From Rhodothermus profundi (GTDB lineage: Bacteria; Bacteroidota; Rhodothermia; Rhodothermales; Rhodothermaceae), in the NCBI RefSeq assembly GCF_900142415.1, contig NZ_FRAU01000009.1, positions 1 to 64,000 on the forward strand: a DNA stretch of 64,000 nt. The letters run 5' to 3'. The notes beneath the pieces are model-generated. The model made no database searches, was not told the origin of the DNA, and saw only the letters and a program-made list of their open reading frames with translations. Below, piece after piece: positions 17,863-25,762 of this stretch (the stretch's first letter is position 1; every line of letters starts with the position of its first letter). The position numbers and the translations under genes were made by a program.

Positions 17863-18441
17863 ATGGCCTGTGCGAATACGACCGTTGCCTTTAACGAGAC
17901 ACCGGAAGTCGTAGAGTGCCGGGGAGAACGCTTCCGACTTTTTCTGGATGCGGCGACGATTCAAAAACGCGTGGCCGAACTGGGACGCCAGATCAGTCGG
18001 GATTATGCAGATCGCCAACCCATCCTGATCGGGGTCCTGAACGGGGCGTTTATGTTTCTGGCCGATCTGATGCGCTATCTTACCATTGATTGTGAGGTGG
18101 ACTTTTTAAAGCTTTCGTCATACGGAGCGGCGAAAGTGTCGAGTGGGCAGGTGTATGAGCTGAAGAAGATTGATGCGGATATTCAGGGACGGCATGTGCT
18201 GGTGGTGGAAGACATTGTCGATACAGGGCTTTCCATGCAGTTCATTCTGGAGCGGCTGCAAGCCTATGAGCCGGCCTCTGTGGCCACGGTCACGCTGCTG
18301 CACAAAGCGGAGGCGACCCAGGTCGACGTGCCTCTGGATTATGTAGGCTTCCAGATCCCAAACAAGTTTGTTATCGGCTATGGACTGGACTACGGCCAAC
18401 TCGCCCGTAACCTGAACGCGATTTATATTTTAGAAGAGTAA
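17863..18441 (+). CDS. hpt: Hypoxanthine phosphoribosyltransferase
   Basis: This cytosolic purine-salvage enzyme forms IMP or GMP from hypoxanthine or guanine and PRPP. The PRPP-binding loop V-V-E-D-I-V-D-T-G-L-S is at about residues 114-124. The P-loop-like I-G-V-L-N-G-A-F-M-F and the substrate-side Y-V-G-F-Q-I-P-N-K-F-V-I-G-Y-G-L-D-Y are also clear. The 192-residue length fits. About 110 bases separate it from tilS. The 213 bases after it contain no evident gene and lead to the zinc-finger/helicase unit. Confidence 0.95.
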   Translation: MACANTTVAFNETPEVVECRGERFRLFLDAATIQKRVAELGRQISRDYADRQPILIGVLNGAFMFLADLMRYLTIDCEVDFLKLSSYGAAKVSSGQVYELKKIDADIQGRHVLVVEDIVDTGLSMQFILERLQAYEPASVATVTLLHKAEATQVDVPLDYVGFQIPNKFVIGYGLDYGQLARNLNAIYILEE

Positions 18442-18584: not shown

Positions 18585-18654
18585 GCATCCTTGTCGTGAT
18601 AGAGCCTTCTGGTTCAGCGAAAACGTGCTAAAAATACCCGGCAGGTGCGTCGTC

Positions 18655-21060
18655 ATGCTTGGAAGATTGCGAAGGTGGTGGCAGAGCTGGGGCTTCCGGC
18701 AGTCGGAGATAGAGGGAGAAGGCACGTCTTTGCAGGCTGAGCTGGAACAGCTGGCAGAAAAACTGGATCATCTCTGGTCGTTTCTGGCCCAACGCATGGG
18801 ACAGTGGGAAGCGGAGCGGCGCCGAATTAAGGAGCTTGAGGCCCAGATAGCCTATCTGAGGCAGCGTTGTCAGGCTCTGGAGGAGCGGTTGTCCAAACGA
18901 GAAGCGCCTGTTTCAACTGGACAGCAGGCAGAACCGACCTCGCAGAAGTCTGAATCTTCGGAATCTGATCCGATCGCGTTTCAAGCTGCCACATTGCAGG
19001 ATGAGGAAAGAAGGCGCCAGGAGGCAACAGAGGCAGGGGCAGTTGACGCAGCGCCCCTAACTGTTCCCTTGAAGCGCGAAGCTGAGCCGGAGGCGCAGGA
19101 GTCTGGGGCTTCTGCGGAGAATGCCGAAAGGCGGGCTGCTACCGGTCGGTCGCATAGACAACGGCGGTCACCAGAAAGACGGGGTGGGCGTCCTCGGAAG
19201 ACGCTGGCCGAGAAAGTCCAGGCTAAGACGGCGCCTCGGGCGACAATTTCTGAGCGGCGCGGTGAGCGGATAGAGCTCATGTGCTGGCAGCGGGGGGGCG
19301 TGTGGGAATGCTGGCTCTTCTGGGACCAGCCATTTGCTGATAATGCCTTCGTGCAAATGCGGCAAGGGGATCAGTGGCTGGAAGGAAATGGGGATACTGG
19401 ATGGCGCCTCGCATCGCTGACAGAGGTGGTCGAAATCGTGCAAGTGGATGCGAGTGGGCAAAGCCAGGCGCGGCCGATTTGGAAAGGACTCCCCGAGGAT
19501 AGGGGGCTGCTGTTTCGGCTCGATCGACAGACGGGCCGGGGGCGGCGAGTAGCTCGCGTTTCACGCGGATGGTATCTGGCTATGGTGCCCGCGCACTGGG
19601 AATGTGCAGACGCGCCGCCCGTGGCTCCAGAGCCTACCGCATTTTCTGGATATCGAGCCCACTACTTTTACTTTGAGCGTCCAGAAGAGGCGCATATCCG
19701 CTTTCGTATCCATGGTCGGGAGCGAACGCTATGGCAACGTGTGGTGCTGGAACTACGAGGGGAACGCCTTCCAGACGCGGCTGTCCTGGAGGGAAGAGGG
19801 CCCCTCTTCCGCAGCCCTCCCGTAATATGGGCCGAGCCGCGGCTATGGCAGACAATCCGAACCATTGTAATCGTAGAAGAGGGAAAAGACAAGCAGCAGC
19901 GATGGCGCATGCAGTTTACTCCCAACTCCGAACCGGCGCAGCCCTTGCCGCAGGAACTGGCCGAACGCGGAGGGGGATGGTATGCCCTGCGGTTTTATGA
20001 TGCCAACGAGCAGTTAATTGAAAGTCTGGACTTTCGTTTTCTAGAAGCACTGGAAGCGATTCAGATAGATCCAGAGACTGCCGTCCTGATTCCTACAGAG
20101 CAGGGGCATTCGACCGTTCGGTTGATTTTTCGGCATCAGCCAGCCTGTCGAATTGAACCGCAGCAAGCATTTCCCGAGGAACTCATCCAGCGGCTGCCAA
20201 ACCAGACTCTCGTGCAGCTTCCCGCTGATAAGCCGCAGTGGGACCGTACCTATTGGCAGGCAAGCGTAGGCAGCGTAGCTGTTGAGCTGTGTGTGGACCT
20301 GCCCCGGATCTGGTGGGCGCTCGCCCGCGGATCTGAACAGAAAGGGGCGAAGCATTTGACCTGGCAGGCACAGCCTCTGCAGCTAACGCGTCAGGATTTT
20401 TCGGCCGTTTCGGATACGATCCTCTATCTGAAGTTGCCGGCTACAGTGCGCCAGGTTTGTTGCGGATTTCCAGAAGATCTTCGTCCTTTTCAACGGCCGG
20501 CTGGCGCTAAAGAGGTTAAGGTACCACTGCGAGAATTTTATGACATAGCACCACACTATCAAACAGGCACTATACCCTTTCTGATGCAGATTGATATGCT
20601 GACGCCTGTGGAAGTGGCCCGTCTGATCCTCTCTCGGCAGTGTGCCTTCTGCGAATTTACCACGGAGCAGGAGCAGGCGCTTCTGGCCCACCTTTTAGAA
20701 GAACATGGCACCCAACTATATCGAAAAGCTGAATGGCATGAGCTCCGCCAGAAAAAGTCAGAGTTACCCAGGGAGATATATCAATGTAAATACTGTGATG
20801 AATATGTTGAGGTGCGAGGAAATTATCCTACCAGTGAAATGCTCAGGCATCAGGAGCAGTACCACAAAGGAAAACAAGAGCGGTTCGAAGTGGTGAGTGA
20901 TCCAGATGTGATTAGAGAGAAAATAACTAAATACAAGGATTTGCCTCGATTTTATGTCTGCAAGCTATGCGGGACGTTTCTGGATATCAGCAGGGACGAA
21001 GGGGTGCTTCGACAGCACATGAGGAGGTGTCACTGGGATGCCATAAGTCGATGGATTTAA
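18655..21060 (+). CDS. Coiled-coil, AT-hook-like, three C2H2 zinc-finger protein, helicase partner
   Basis: The 801-residue product has four visible parts. Residues about 20-85 form a charged heptad coiled coil. About 86-190 is a low-complexity polar linker ending in R-R-G-G-R-P-R-K (175-182), which resembles an AT-hook. A central region of about 450 residues is rich in beta-prone, tryptophan-containing sequence and unknown to me. The C-terminus carries three C2H2 fingers: C-x2-C-x12-H-x4-H (663-684), C-x2-C-x17-H-x4-H (711-737) and C-x2-C-x15-H-x4-H (769-793). The finger-coding DNA (about 20560-21060) is visibly more AT-rich than the rest. ATG 18655 follows a GCAGGTG motif; GTG 18625 is an alternative. 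It ends one base before the helicase gene, so the two form an operon. A DNA-binding or sensing subunit is inference. Confidence 0.85.
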   Translation: MLGRLRRWWQSWGFRQSEIEGEGTSLQAELEQLAEKLDHLWSFLAQRMGQWEAERRRIKELEAQIAYLRQRCQALEERLSKREAPVSTGQQAEPTSQKSESSESDPIAFQAATLQDEERRRQEATEAGAVDAAPLTVPLKREAEPEAQESGASAENAERRAATGRSHRQRRSPERRGGRPRKTLAEKVQAKTAPRATISERRGERIELMCWQRGGVWECWLFWDQPFADNAFVQMRQGDQWLEGNGDTGWRLASLTEVVEIVQVDASGQSQARPIWKGLPEDRGLLFRLDRQTGRGRRVARVSRGWYLAMVPAHWECADAPPVAPEPTAFSGYRAHYFYFERPEEAHIRFRIHGRERTLWQRVVLELRGERLPDAAVLEGRGPLFRSPPVIWAEPRLWQTIRTIVIVEEGKDKQQRWRMQFTPNSEPAQPLPQELAERGGGWYALRFYDANEQLIESLDFRFLEALEAIQIDPETAVLIPTEQGHSTVRLIFRHQPACRIEPQQAFPEELIQRLPNQTLVQLPADKPQWDRTYWQASVGSVAVELCVDLPRIWWALARGSEQKGAKHLTWQAQPLQLTRQDFSAVSDTILYLKLPATVRQVCCGFPEDLRPFQRPAGAKEVKVPLREFYDIAPHYQTGTIPFLMQIDMLTPVEVARLILSRQCAFCEFTTEQEQALLAHLLEEHGTQLYRKAEWHELRQKKSELPREIYQCKYCDEYVEVRGNYPTSEMLRHQEQYHKGKQERFEVVSDPDVIREKITKYKDLPRFYVCKLCGTFLDISRDEGVLRQHMRRCHWDAISRWI

Positions 21061-21061
21061 C

Positions 21062-24000
21062 ATGATGGACGCGTTTGCTTTATCCCAGGAGATCGTAGCG
21101 CGTTATCAGCGCTACCTATGGACAACGTTTTCGTTTCGGGATGCCGCGCTGCAGGCCTCTTTTGAGCAGGCATTGAACAGGTGGCCATTGAGTCGCGGTC
21201 CGTTTGTCGAAGCTACGCCGCCTTTCCGACGGGGGCGAACGCCTCGGGAGCTTTTTTCGGCGCTACTGGATCCGCCGCCCGATGAAGGCTTTTTGCAGGC
21301 CCTCTATGGGGATCGCCCGCTTTATCAACATCAGGAGGAGGCTATCCAAAAGGTGTGGGAAGGGCAGAACGTGATCGTGGCCACCGGTACGGGCAGTGGA
21401 AAGACGGAGGCCTTTCTCTATCCGATTCTGCTTCACCTTTACCGAGAGTATCAACAGGGACAGTTAGGGCCAGGGGTGCGGGCACTGGTGCTGTATCCCA
21501 TGAATGCGCTGGCCCATGACCAGCGAGAGCGTCTGGGTACGATTTGTCAACGCCTGGAGGCATTTGGATCACCCTTCCGCTTCACGTTCGGACAGTATAT
21601 CGGAGAAACGCCTGAAAATGAAGGGGATGCGCATCGGAAGCTCAGGGAGCGGCTGCCTGGTGAGCTGATTTTTCGCCGAGAGATGCGTGAAACGCCCCCG
21701 CATATTCTGCTGACGAATTATTCCATGCTGGAGTATTTGTTGTTGCGGCCAGACGATAGTCCGCTCTTTGATGGAGGGCGGGCGCGCTGGTGGACGTTTC
21801 TGGTGCTGGACGAAGCGCATCAGTATCGGGGAACGCGGGGGACCGAGATGGCGCTGTTGCTGCGCCGCCTGAAACATCGTCTGCGCCAGGGAGGACGTCG
21901 GGGCGCTTTTCGCTGCGTGGCTACGAGTGCGACCCTGCTGCGGGGAGAAAAGGACCGGGAAGCGGTGGCGCGTTTTGCGACGGATCTTTTCGGGGAGCCG
22001 TTCTCTTCTGCAGGCGTGGTGCTAAGCGTGCGGGAGGCTATTCCAGAGCCTGAGAACGGATTGGCGTTAGAAGTCGCTGACTATGAGCGCCTGTTACAAG
22101 GAGTGTTGAATGCGGAGTGGTCAGAAGAGGACCGGGAGTGGCTGAATGCCCTGGGACGTCGGGCGGGGCGTCCTTGCCCGACCTGGTCGGCTGCAATGGA
22201 AAAATGGGCGCAATGGGTGGGCGGCATTCTGGAGCAGGATCGCCGAGCAGCTATGCTGCGGCGGCTGCTTGCGCAGCATGTCCAGGAAGCTCGAACGCTC
22301 GCCCGCGCCCTTTTCCCGGAGCTGGAGGCCGCTCCAGAGCAGGAAAAAGCGTTGCACACGTTGCTGCGCCTGTTAGTGCGGGCCCGTCATCCAGAAACCG
22401 GAGCGCCTCTCCTCACCGTGCGGTATCATCTTTTCCTGCGTGCTCTGGAAGGGGTTTTTCTGCGCTGGCAACAGGGATCCTGGGAAGTCACGTTGGAACG
22501 TGCCCAGGAGTCCGAAGCGGAACGTGTGTTTGAGGTGGCTTTGTGCCGGTCCTGTGGGCAGCACTATCTCGTAGGACAGGTCCGCGGATCCCGGTGGCAG
22601 GAAGCTGTGCGCGATCCTGGACGCGAGGATTTCGGCGTGCAGTATCTGCGTCCCCTGGCAGCAACCGATGAAGAGAATCAAAAAGGCCCAGAGAAGACGG
22701 GGCTGCTCTGTCTGCGCTGTGGCGCCATCAGCATGTCAGACCGGCATCAGCCGCCCTGCTCCCATGATGCTACACACTGGTTGCGGGTTGTTTTAGAAGA
22801 GGCGCCCGAAGATGCAACGCGGGCTGATCAACTGGCCCGGTGCTCCGTGTGTGGCTATACCGCCGGCGGCCGTGACCCAGTGGGCGAAGTGACGTATGGC
22901 GACGAAGGACCGCATGTAGTAATGGCTACCACGCTGCATCAGTGCCTGCCGGTCTCACGTCGGCGGGTGCTGGCGTTTGCTGACGGACGGCAGCAGGCCG
23001 CTTTTTTTGCCTGGTATTTGGAAAAGACCTATCAGGATATTCTGGAACGACAGCTTCTGCTCGAAGCGGCACGCCGCCAGGCGTTGGCCGCAACCTCTGA
23101 AGGGCTCTCGCTGAGCGACCTGGCGGCAGCATTGCTGCCCCTGCTACGAACCCATCGGATTCTACCGGAGTCGGCCAGTGCGCTGGATCGGCAGCGCCAG
23201 AGCTGGCGGATGATTTACCGAGAATTTCTGGCCGAGGGAGACCGAATTTCATTAGAAGGGGTGGGATTGATTCGGTGGCACCTCCGTTTTCCTGACTGGC
23301 TGGTGTTGCCCGAGGAGCTCCTCGAGGGACCCTGGAAGTTTTCCGCAGAAGAAATCTATCAACTGTTGCAGGTGTTGCTGGATACGCTGCGGAAAGAAGC
23401 CGCTGTCACATTGGTGGGCGATGCCTCCCTCATTACGCTGGACTGGCAGACGCTGGGGCTGCGCACTCGTCCGCTGTCGGTTCGCCTGGGTCCCCCGCGC
23501 GGTCGTTTGCAGATGCGAGACTGGGCAGGTCCTAAGGGGCGACGGGTCCAGCTTCTCCGACGGATTCTCCGGGCACGTGGCGTTGCGAAGGTCGATCTTG
23601 ATCGCGCTGCCCGCCACATCTTAGAGCTAATCTGGCAAGCGCTGGATGACACCGACCGACAGGCCCGCTCCCAGGAAGATCGGCTTTTGCTACCAGCCCG
23701 GGGAGGCAAGCAGTTGAATCCGCGCTGGTGGCGTCTGCAGTTAGTAAATCCCGAGGATCAGGTATATCACTGTGAAAGCTGCGGGCGGCTCCATCCCTTT
23801 CCGGTCGTTGCGGGATGTTGTCCAGCACCCCGATGCCAGGGGCAGCTACGTCCAGTGTTGCAGCAGGCGTTGCCCGAGAACCATTATCGAAGACTCTACC
23901 AGGAGCCCTTTGTGGGACTGTTACGGGTAGAAGAACATACCGCCCAGTTGAGTTATGAGCAAGCCCGGGCGTATCAACAGGACTTCCGGAAGGGGCGCAT

Positions 24001-25762
24001 TCATGTGCTGAGCTGCTCGACTACCTTTGAACTGGGCGTAGATCTGGGCGATCTGGACGTAGTCTTTTTACGCAATGTGCCCCCTGAACCGTTTAACTAT
24101 GCGCAGCGGGTAGGTCGGGCGGGGCGTCGCCAGGAGCCCGGTTTTGCCCTGACCTATTGCCGGCGCACCTCACATGATTTGTATCACTTCCAGCAACCTG
24201 AACGCATGCTGGAAGGACATATTCGGCCTCCCGTGCTTTCGCTGACAAACGAGAAACTGCTGCTGCGCCACCTGATGGCGTGGGCCCTGGCCCGCTTCTT
24301 CCGCCGGTGTCCGGAACGCTTTGGGTCGGTAGAAGCGCTGGTGGGGGACTGGCAGCAGCCTACCTTGATGGCGCAACTGCAGATTTTCCTGGAGGATCAG
24401 GAACCCGAACTTCAGGAAGATTTTGCGCAAATGTTTCCGGAAGCCTGGCACGGGAACGCCCGGATGCTGCCAAAATGTTGGCGGCAGCAACTGCTGGATC
24501 CAGAAGGCCGGCTGGCGCTAGCGCTTGATGAGGTAGTGGCCGATTACCAGGCAGCCAGAGCGCTGCAGCGTCAGGCCGCAGAGCAAGAAGACTATGCGAG
24601 GGCCAGATGGGCAAAAAAACGGGCTGAAACCATTGCCAGCGAACCCGTGCTCTCCTTCTTGTCGCGCAAAGCGGTTATTCCTAAGTATGGGTTTCCGGTC
24701 GATGTGGTGGAATTAGATACGCACCAGACCGACCGGGCCGATGTGGTCCTGCAACGAGACCTTCAGATCGCTATCTCTGAGTTTGCGCCTACTGCTGAGG
24801 TGATCGCCAACAAGCGCCTCTGGAAGTCCTATGGATTGAAGCAGGTACCCGAGCGCGCCTGGCCGGTCTATCTGTATAAGCGATGCGACCGGCACAACAC
24901 GTTTGTCCTGTGGCCCCAGGAACGCCAGGCCAGTGGAGGGGAACAGGTGCTTCCCTGCGGCTGTGAGCAGCCCGCTCGCTGTTTTGTGGTTCCCCGTTTT
25001 GGCTTTGTAACCAGACGTGGCGAACCAGAAACGCCGAAGAGACGACCCCAGCGTCTTTTTTCCAGTCGTCCCTACTTTGGAGGAGGCATCGGGACTTCTC
25101 CGGAACGCATTCCCTTACCGGAGGCCGAAAACCCCTTGATCTGGGTTACGCCAGCAACTCCGGGTCGCATGGTGGTGCTCTGCGAAGGTTATCGGCGTGG
25201 AGGGTTTTATCTCTGCGAGCAGTGTGGCATGGCTACCCGGGGATGGCAGGCGTCCCACCAGACTCCTTATGGGTCGTCCTGCTCGGGGACGTTAAAATGG
25301 GTGGCGCTAGGGCATGAATTCGTCACGGATGTGCTGCGCCTGGAGTTCGTCTTTCCCCCTGACGCTGCTATTGGGGGAAATAGTGAAGGAGCAGCGCAGG
25401 GATTTGCGTACTCCCTGGCGTATGCCCTGGTGGAAGCCGCTGCAGAACTATTGGAGGTGCCGGCGACCGACCTGAATACCGTAGTAGCCTACAAGAAGAA
25501 ATCGCTGCAGATTCCCCCGATTTTGCTGTATGACGACGTGCCGGGTGGGGCCGGACTGGTCGCGCAACTTGGTAAAGAGCCCGCGATGTTGCGTAGCTGT
25601 CTGGAATTGGCCAAAGAACGGGTGCGGGGAACCTGTGGCTGTGGAGCGTTGACCAGTTGTTATGGATGTCTGCGCAGCTACCGCAACCAGTTTGTGCATG
25701 AACAGTTGCGTCGCGGACCTGTGCATGCCTATCTCCAGCAGCTGCTGAAACACTGGGCATAG
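21062..25762 (+). CDS. Large DEAH-box helicase with DUF1998-type zinc-binding C-terminus
   Basis: A 1566-residue superfamily 2 helicase. RecA1 motifs: A-T-G-T-G-S-G-K-T-E (Walker A, K114), Y-P-M-N-A-L-A-H-D-Q, L-L-T-N-Y-S-M-L-E-Y, D-E-A-H (250-253) and S-A-T (289-291). RecA2 motifs: F-A-D-G-R-Q-Q-A-A, T-T-F-E-L-G-V-D-L-G and Q-R-V-G-R-A-G-R-R (1015-1023). Between the lobes is a long insertion with CxxC pairs at 495/498, 550/553 and 594/597, plus another cysteine cluster near 905-925. The C-terminus has the DUF1998/MZB-like cluster C1525-x-C-x5-C-x2-C followed by L-R-S-Y-R-N-Q. This layout is shared by MrfA-type repair helicases and by the defence helicases DruE and DrmB-associated families. 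The length and the zinc-finger partner fit none of these exactly. It is probably a DNA translocase for defence or repair. Confidence 0.9.
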   Translation: MMDAFALSQEIVARYQRYLWTTFSFRDAALQASFEQALNRWPLSRGPFVEATPPFRRGRTPRELFSALLDPPPDEGFLQALYGDRPLYQHQEEAIQKVWEGQNVIVATGTGSGKTEAFLYPILLHLYREYQQGQLGPGVRALVLYPMNALAHDQRERLGTICQRLEAFGSPFRFTFGQYIGETPENEGDAHRKLRERLPGELIFRREMRETPPHILLTNYSMLEYLLLRPDDSPLFDGGRARWWTFLVLDEAHQYRGTRGTEMALLLRRLKHRLRQGGRRGAFRCVATSATLLRGEKDREAVARFATDLFGEPFSSAGVVLSVREAIPEPENGLALEVADYERLLQGVLNAEWSEEDREWLNALGRRAGRPCPTWSAAMEKWAQWVGGILEQDRRAAMLRRLLAQHVQEARTLARALFPELEAAPEQEKALHTLLRLLVRARHPETGAPLLTVRYHLFLRALEGVFLRWQQGSWEVTLERAQESEAERVFEVALCRSCGQHYLVGQVRGSRWQEAVRDPGREDFGVQYLRPLAATDEENQKGPEKTGLLCLRCGAISMSDRHQPPCSHDATHWLRVVLEEAPEDATRADQLARCSVCGYTAGGRDPVGEVTYGDEGPHVVMATTLHQCLPVSRRRVLAFADGRQQAAFFAWYLEKTYQDILERQLLLEAARRQALAATSEGLSLSDLAAALLPLLRTHRILPESASALDRQRQSWRMIYREFLAEGDRISLEGVGLIRWHLRFPDWLVLPEELLEGPWKFSAEEIYQLLQVLLDTLRKEAAVTLVGDASLITLDWQTLGLRTRPLSVRLGPPRGRLQMRDWAGPKGRRVQLLRRILRARGVAKVDLDRAARHILELIWQALDDTDRQARSQEDRLLLPARGGKQLNPRWWRLQLVNPEDQVYHCESCGRLHPFPVVAGCCPAPRCQGQLRPVLQQALPENHYRRLYQEPFVGLLRVEEHTAQLSYEQARAYQQDFRKGRIHVLSCSTTFELGVDLGDLDVVFLRNVPPEPFNYAQRVGRAGRRQEPGFALTYCRRTSHDLYHFQQPERMLEGHIRPPVLSLTNEKLLLRHLMAWALARFFRRCPERFGSVEALVGDWQQPTLMAQLQIFLEDQEPELQEDFAQMFPEAWHGNARMLPKCWRQQLLDPEGRLALALDEVVADYQAARALQRQAAEQEDYARARWAKKRAETIASEPVLSFLSRKAVIPKYGFPVDVVELDTHQTDRADVVLQRDLQIAISEFAPTAEVIANKRLWKSYGLKQVPERAWPVYLYKRCDRHNTFVLWPQERQASGGEQVLPCGCEQPARCFVVPRFGFVTRRGEPETPKRRPQRLFSSRPYFGGGIGTSPERIPLPEAENPLIWVTPATPGRMVVLCEGYRRGGFYLCEQCGMATRGWQASHQTPYGSSCSGTLKWVALGHEFVTDVLRLEFVFPPDAAIGGNSEGAAQGFAYSLAYALVEAAAELLEVPATDLNTVVAYKKKSLQIPPILLYDDVPGGAGLVAQLGKEPAMLRSCLELAKERVRGTCGCGALTSCYGCLRSYRNQFVHEQLRRGPVHAYLQQLLKHWA

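Follow-up and report, generated by a model that had tools for sequence, protein, structure and literature searches.

A DruE-like helicase and a new partner family with exchanged C-termini form a candidate Druantia III-like defence pair in Rhodothermus profundi

We analysed a 64,000-nucleotide stretch of Rhodothermus profundi DNA (positions 1-64,000 of the forward strand of contig NZ_FRAU01000009.1, assembly GCF_900142415.1), hereafter the window, which carries two adjacent plus-strand genes: a conserved partner gene and proposed sensor, here called P (18655..21060; 801 amino acids), and, always directly downstream of it, a gene for a DruE-like YprA-family superfamily 2 helicase (21062..25762; 1566 amino acids). 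In the list of open reading frames (ORFs), the P frame runs from a GTG across 18625-21060; the most plausible start is the ATG at 18655, the position at which the nearest relative also starts in the alignment. The P stop codon occupies 21058-21060 and the helicase ATG lies at 21062, so that the two lengths and the one-base gap given in a preliminary description of this DNA are borne out. An hpt-like gene (17863..18441, plus strand) lies upstream. Its sequence and its conservation in each of the seven genomes of the genus support this identity, and the site on its downstream side varies within the genus. The only window ORFs that separate hpt from the next convergent gene are P and the helicase. 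At the closest homologous locus (genome G006), both genes stand at the same place after hpt, with 78% identity for P and 86% for the helicase; the ratio of nonsynonymous to synonymous substitution rates (dN/dS) is 0.24 and 0.15, respectively. Sequence comparison confirms both as real genes. Promoter and terminator scans at the locus returned nothing beyond shuffled controls.

The helicase shows the MrfA/DruE-like plan that had been described, with split lobes, Cys-rich insertions and a C-terminal Cys motif followed by S-Y-R-N. The DEAD domain (RecA1; 21326..21937, residues 89-292, Pfam 3.1e-22) contains an intact Walker A motif GTGSGKTE at residue 109 and DEAH at 250, and is widely separated from Helicase_C (RecA2; 23921..24130, residues 954-1023, Pfam 1.1e-11), in which motif VI, QRVGRAGR, starts at 1015. 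The MrfA Zn-binding domain (MZB, DUF1998; 25415..25672, residues 1452-1537, Pfam 3.4e-10) includes C-x-C-x5-C-x2-C and then LRSYRN, at 1525. Six CxxC knuckles were found, including those at residues 495, 550, 594, 904 and 1385. The protein ends 27 residues past the last MZB motif (22-45 residues in the rest of its clade, described below), and by its sequence it lacks a fused nuclease. With DEAD, Helicase_C and MZB domains and strong matches to the PADLOC DruE profiles (DruE1, 3.9e-176; DruE3, 1.8e-154; best score 587 bits), it has the make-up of a Druantia helicase of the DruE family. The next PADLOC defence helicases, DpdJ, BrxHI and DrmA, all score below 85 bits. Its solved relatives are 9tu7, with a sequence match of 1026 bits to E. 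coli DruE, and 9wae; MrfA (6znp) is far weaker, at 84 bits. These profile and structure matches place the helicase in the Druantia/ARMADA branch of YprA helicases, nearest to DruE. The repair helicases MrfA/YprA and DISARM DrmAB share the DEAH core and the MZB domain, but their similarity is much weaker, and the window helicase carries the Zn-module insertions of the defence branch. Neither an MrfB/YprB-type exonuclease nor a DrmC partner was found in the window unit.

It is evident that P is rare and patchily distributed. P was found in 5 of the 245 genomes of its class, in 2 of the 7 genomes of the genus, and once more in another class of the same phylum. When 84,980 species were scanned with the core alignment, 20 loci were recovered, 19 of them with a recognisable P frame, in Bipolaricaulota, Planctomycetota, Thermodesulfobacteriota, Chloroflexota, Patescibacteria, Omnitrophota, Proteobacteria and a Methanophagales archaeon; most of these are bins from metagenomes, for which the taxon assignment may be in error. 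The family was not found in IMG/VR or in plasmids. Nearly identical P cores occur in Thiotrichales- and Bacteroidetes-labelled bins from similar samples (L044, L045 and L043), reflecting either transfer between phyla or mis-binning. Wherever the contig extends beyond P, a DruE-like helicase directly follows it on the same strand, and the complete ones are 1400-1600 residues long. Among 240 genomes of the class, P-adjacent helicases score at least 592 bits, apart from lower-scoring split or contig-end pieces, whereas the best helicase without P scores 434 bits and the rest below 215. A tree of 31 helicases unites all 11 P-linked ones in one clade with a support of 100 in the Shimodaira-Hasegawa-like approximate likelihood ratio test (SH-aLRT), apart from the helicases linked to DruH (the Druantia III partner), from those of Druantia I and II, and from ARMADA-like ones, including that of the ARMADA-like operon L069; this holds after removal of long branches. 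The comparisons show that P and the helicase are strictly paired, which answers the question of co-occurrence that had been raised.

Searches of P against Pfam, NCBIfam and PADLOC gave only coiled-coil and zinc-finger noise, and a sequence search of solved structures gave nothing more than a weak zinc-finger match; by these searches it is a new family. No nuclease domain was found in P by profile. Across the family, the predicted anatomy consists of an N-terminus that is either a membrane anchor or amphipathic, a coiled-coil or disordered linker, an immunoglobulin (Ig)-like core and a C-terminal module. A clear N-terminal transmembrane segment is present in 11 homologues (KD19 2.0-3.3) and an amphipathic helix in others. 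In the window P, hydropathy detects no transmembrane helix; its N-terminus is instead basic and amphipathic (MLGRLRRWWQSWGFRQSE, 18655..18708), with a basic, aromatic stretch (MLGRLRRWWQSW) and a coiled coil (18736..18909, from weak coiled-coil matches at residues ~16-85); this member may contact the membrane. The linker contains a basic, AT-hook-like motif, RRGGRPR (19177..19197), which may bind DNA; of 21 homologues, 10 have it as (K/R)RGGRPR or RGGRPR and most others as degenerate GRSR, GRRSR or GGRRG. The conserved core (19267..20595) is predicted to consist of tandem Ig/fibronectin type III (FnIII)-like beta-sandwich domains. The AlphaFold2 model of residues 196-801 has a predicted local distance difference test score (pLDDT) of 87 and shows a string of beta-sandwiches followed by fingers, and Ig and FnIII arrays top both the Foldseek and the VIA-align lists, with scores that indicate a common fold only. 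The C-terminus carries three fingers of the pattern C-x2-C...H...H/C: a C2H2 finger with CAFC...H-x4-H (20641..20706, residues 663-684), a C2H2/C2HC finger (20785..20865, residues 711-737) and a C2H2 finger (20959..21033, residues 769-793) with weak zf-C2H2 and zf-BED matches. All these features lie on the plus strand.

The preliminary description had called the partner a zinc-finger protein. The three fingers are indeed present, and three regularly spaced C2H2/C2HC fingers end seven members of the family, the window P and six homologues. Other members carry different domains at this position. A uS9-like domain was found in L036 (Pfam 2.7e-14) and L034 (1.9e-10), and an eL13-like domain in L030/L031 (2e-7 in L031), all above the curated cut-offs; the C-termini of L042, L043 and L045 are linked to the eL13-like module by BLAST (E from 1e-6 to 1e-12). 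A fourth, basic helical module is shared by L029, L037 (4291-4761), L038, L039 and L083 (8370-10694), for which the structure model is helical and of low confidence and yielded no convincing match. By these domain matches, zinc fingers are one of at least four alternative modules and not the defining part of the family. Close relatives differ in the module that they carry. L034 (uS9) and L035 (fingers) are 62% identical in the P core and 74% in the helicase but have unrelated C-termini, and they are sisters with a support of 97/99 in the core tree and 99 in the helicase tree. Similarly, L033 (fingers) and L036 (uS9) are 50% identical in the core and 74% in the helicase, with unrelated C-termini; both trees pair them as sisters, although the core tree supports them less strongly (89/83). 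Assembly error is unlikely for L036 because it comes from a complete genome. The core tree requires 8 module changes, against a theoretical minimum of 4. Taken together, the trees and alignments show that the C-terminal module has been swapped between close relatives of P. An ordinary uS9 is kept in G190 and in the archaeal genome, so the uS9-like module is a second copy, whereas the bacteria with the eL13-like module have no other eL13 in their genomes.

We then considered how P is related to DruH, the protein put forward as the sensor of Druantia III, in which three Ig-like domains occur (PMC13192584). PADLOC DruH models gave no match to P or its homologues, while the true E. coli DruH scores 1830 bits; by single profiles P cannot be called DruH, in line with the preliminary description. 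DruH (9tud) was also not among the top rows of a structure search, which carries no weight because it may be missing from the library. In profile-profile comparison with hhalign, the P core aligns collinearly with DruH ~387-626, with a P-value of 2.8e-5 and a probability of 74% for the main subset of P sequences, and 7.7e-5 and 62% for all members. The controls gave P-values of at least 0.034 (30 column shuffles), at least 0.046 (10 other Druantia-type partners) and 0.42 (an unrelated Ig-repeat protein). An early comparison with seven DruH sequences had reached a probability of 5%, which rose as rows were added. The Ig-like core of P is probably a distant homolog of the Ig-like region of DruH. 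The likeness extends to the whole unit, as Druantia III is also a two-gene operon with a sensor-like gene first and a DruE-family helicase second, and the Ig-like domains of its partner are predicted in P as well. These resemblances and the collinear match with clean controls could mean that the pair is a very divergent Druantia III, in which P is a DruH too diverged to be recognised, the mechanism is unchanged and the C-terminus is incidental. We regard this as unlikely: the hhalign probability is just 62-74%, no DruH model matches P, and neither the conserved N-terminal ~250 residues nor the large C-terminal region of DruH has a detected counterpart in P. Moreover, DruH-linked and P-linked helicases form two separate clades (SH-aLRT 100 each), and the genomes of the class that carry a true DruH are never those with P. 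P also differs from DruH in its swappable C-terminal modules and membrane-type N-terminus. The P-linked helicases are smaller than those of Druantia III (1650-2100 residues), and the C-terminal phospholipase D (PLD) nuclease domains of the E. coli type III DruE are absent from the window helicase; some DruH-linked DruE are likewise nuclease-less, ending 29-31 residues after MZB (L059 and L074). L074 (1491-9919, genome G050), from the class of the window genome, encodes a true DruH of 1157 residues and a 1652-residue DruE without fused nuclease.

Among other relatives, Druantia I, II and IV also use a DruE-family helicase, and type IV consists of DruE, DruF and DruL (PMC8565338). DruA-D, DruM, DruF, DruG and DruL were not found in the window unit, and P matches no PADLOC model. 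ARMADA has a related YprA-family defence helicase, but the window unit lacks its BrxHII-like helicase and PglX-like methyltransferase. A survey of YprA helicases describes a Druantia III-like branch that is most often nuclease-less (PMC12458937). The present pair is not described in the literature searched, and the main text of that survey, its supplements aside, does not mention P; the P-linked clade may be listed there, without a name, in the supplements. The proposal that the pairing falls outside the named systems thus stands for the partner family, which is unnamed, and not fully for the unit, in that the helicase stands nearest to DruE and the core of P is probably related to DruH. In G020 (L047:6469-14267) and G240 (L049/L048), another DruE-related helicase lies behind a protein of ~960 residues (L047:6469-9348 and L049), which by the same tests is neither P nor DruH. 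It is possibly a third kind of two-gene partner. A 100% match of this protein to DruH was discarded as circular because one sequence sat in both alignments.

Most P loci have defence genes as neighbours: at ten of those tested, large neighbouring frames match PADLOC models. They include type I, II and IIG methylases or restriction enzymes, type III restriction enzymes, Hma components, SIR2/Argonaute-associated proteins, PDC-S01, S06 and S18, and an RmrA/CapP-like regulator. On the question whether the pair lies in defence islands, these ten loci speak in favour, but those of the window and KatS3mg041 are found among ordinary genes. Between the two pair-bearing Rhodothermus genomes, dS reaches 1.3 in hpt and 2.1 in the next gene but is ~0.5 in both P and the helicase; the lower value of the pair is a mark of recent exchange. 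The gene after the window helicase, earlier labelled DUF72, lies at another position in a relative. The site after hpt is variable across the genus: in G001 (L020:4548-9000), hpt is immediately followed by a CRISPR array (GAAATAATCGCACCTTTGTGGTATTGAAAT, more than 60 repeats, spacing ~66), which occupies the same site as the pair does in the window. A clean empty site was not seen, the pair-less genomes carrying other genes after hpt. The distribution and divergence show that the pair is patchy and has moved horizontally. These observations also bear on the repair function that had been offered beside defence. In a repair pair of the MrfAB kind, the helicase would unwind damaged DNA and P would be its DNA-binding loader. 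The YprA family, the zinc fingers and AT-hook-like motif of P, the presence of 6znp among the structure matches and the housekeeping neighbours in the window would all suit such a pair. Nevertheless, we hold it to be highly improbable, given the placement of the helicase in the defence branch (587 bits with the DruE profile, 84 bits with MrfA), the missing MrfB-type exonuclease, and a patchiness, defence neighbourhood, horizontal transfer and module swapping that are atypical of core repair. Of defence and repair, defence is favoured, as a new variation on a Druantia-type theme.

We propose that the two genes probably constitute a Druantia III-like anti-phage sensor-helicase pair with a modular sensor family. 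In Druantia III, DruE loads on 3'-tailed DNA (PMC13192584), and DruHE blocks the circularisation and replication of phage DNA, with both genes needed (PMC13316683). By analogy, P would be the sensor of infection. Its N-terminus would keep it at the membrane or in a coiled-coil multimer, its Ig-like core would be the scaffold contacting the helicase, and its C-terminal module, here the zinc fingers, would read the trigger, which may be phage nucleic acid or nucleoprotein. Binding of the trigger would license the helicase to load on 3'-tailed phage DNA and translocate. Because the helicase lacks a nuclease, the outcome would be a block of replication or circularisation and exposure of the DNA to other, host nucleases rather than direct cutting. 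Whether the trigger-reading end is truly exchanged as a cassette of zinc-finger, uS9 or eL13 folds, with scaffold and helicase kept, seems to us an evenly balanced question. Domains that resemble two unrelated ribosomal proteins stand at one and the same place in P, and G190 and the archaeon have a second uS9 besides the ribosomal one; such modules could also be read as decoys for a phage factor that attacks or binds ribosomal proteins, the attack triggering the helicase. However, eL13 is not a bacterial ribosomal protein, the bacteria with the eL13-like module lack any other copy, zinc fingers suit a nucleic-acid-binding theme better, and we know of no phage factor targeting such modules; we give decoys very little credence. 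Several points weigh against the sensor-helicase proposal itself. The defence role, including phage protection by the P-linked clade, is argued from the helicase branch and the neighbourhoods only, and trigger recognition and the ligands of the C-terminal modules are suppositions. The neighbouring frames were picked by size and position, their enrichment being given without a random control, and the window and KatS3mg041 loci have the housekeeping surroundings noted above.

Among Druantia-type systems, DruH is a sensor only by indirect evidence. The sister systems described here amount to a natural swap experiment, in which nearly the same scaffold and helicase carry different C-termini, so that trigger recognition is directly testable with chimaeras. 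If the cassette reading is true, specificity would be altered by domain swapping while scaffold and helicase stay, and ribosomal-protein folds, the surprising part of the finding, would join the parts from which bacterial immune sensors are built. The P-linked helicases would then define a further YprA/DruE defence lineage, one without a fused nuclease.
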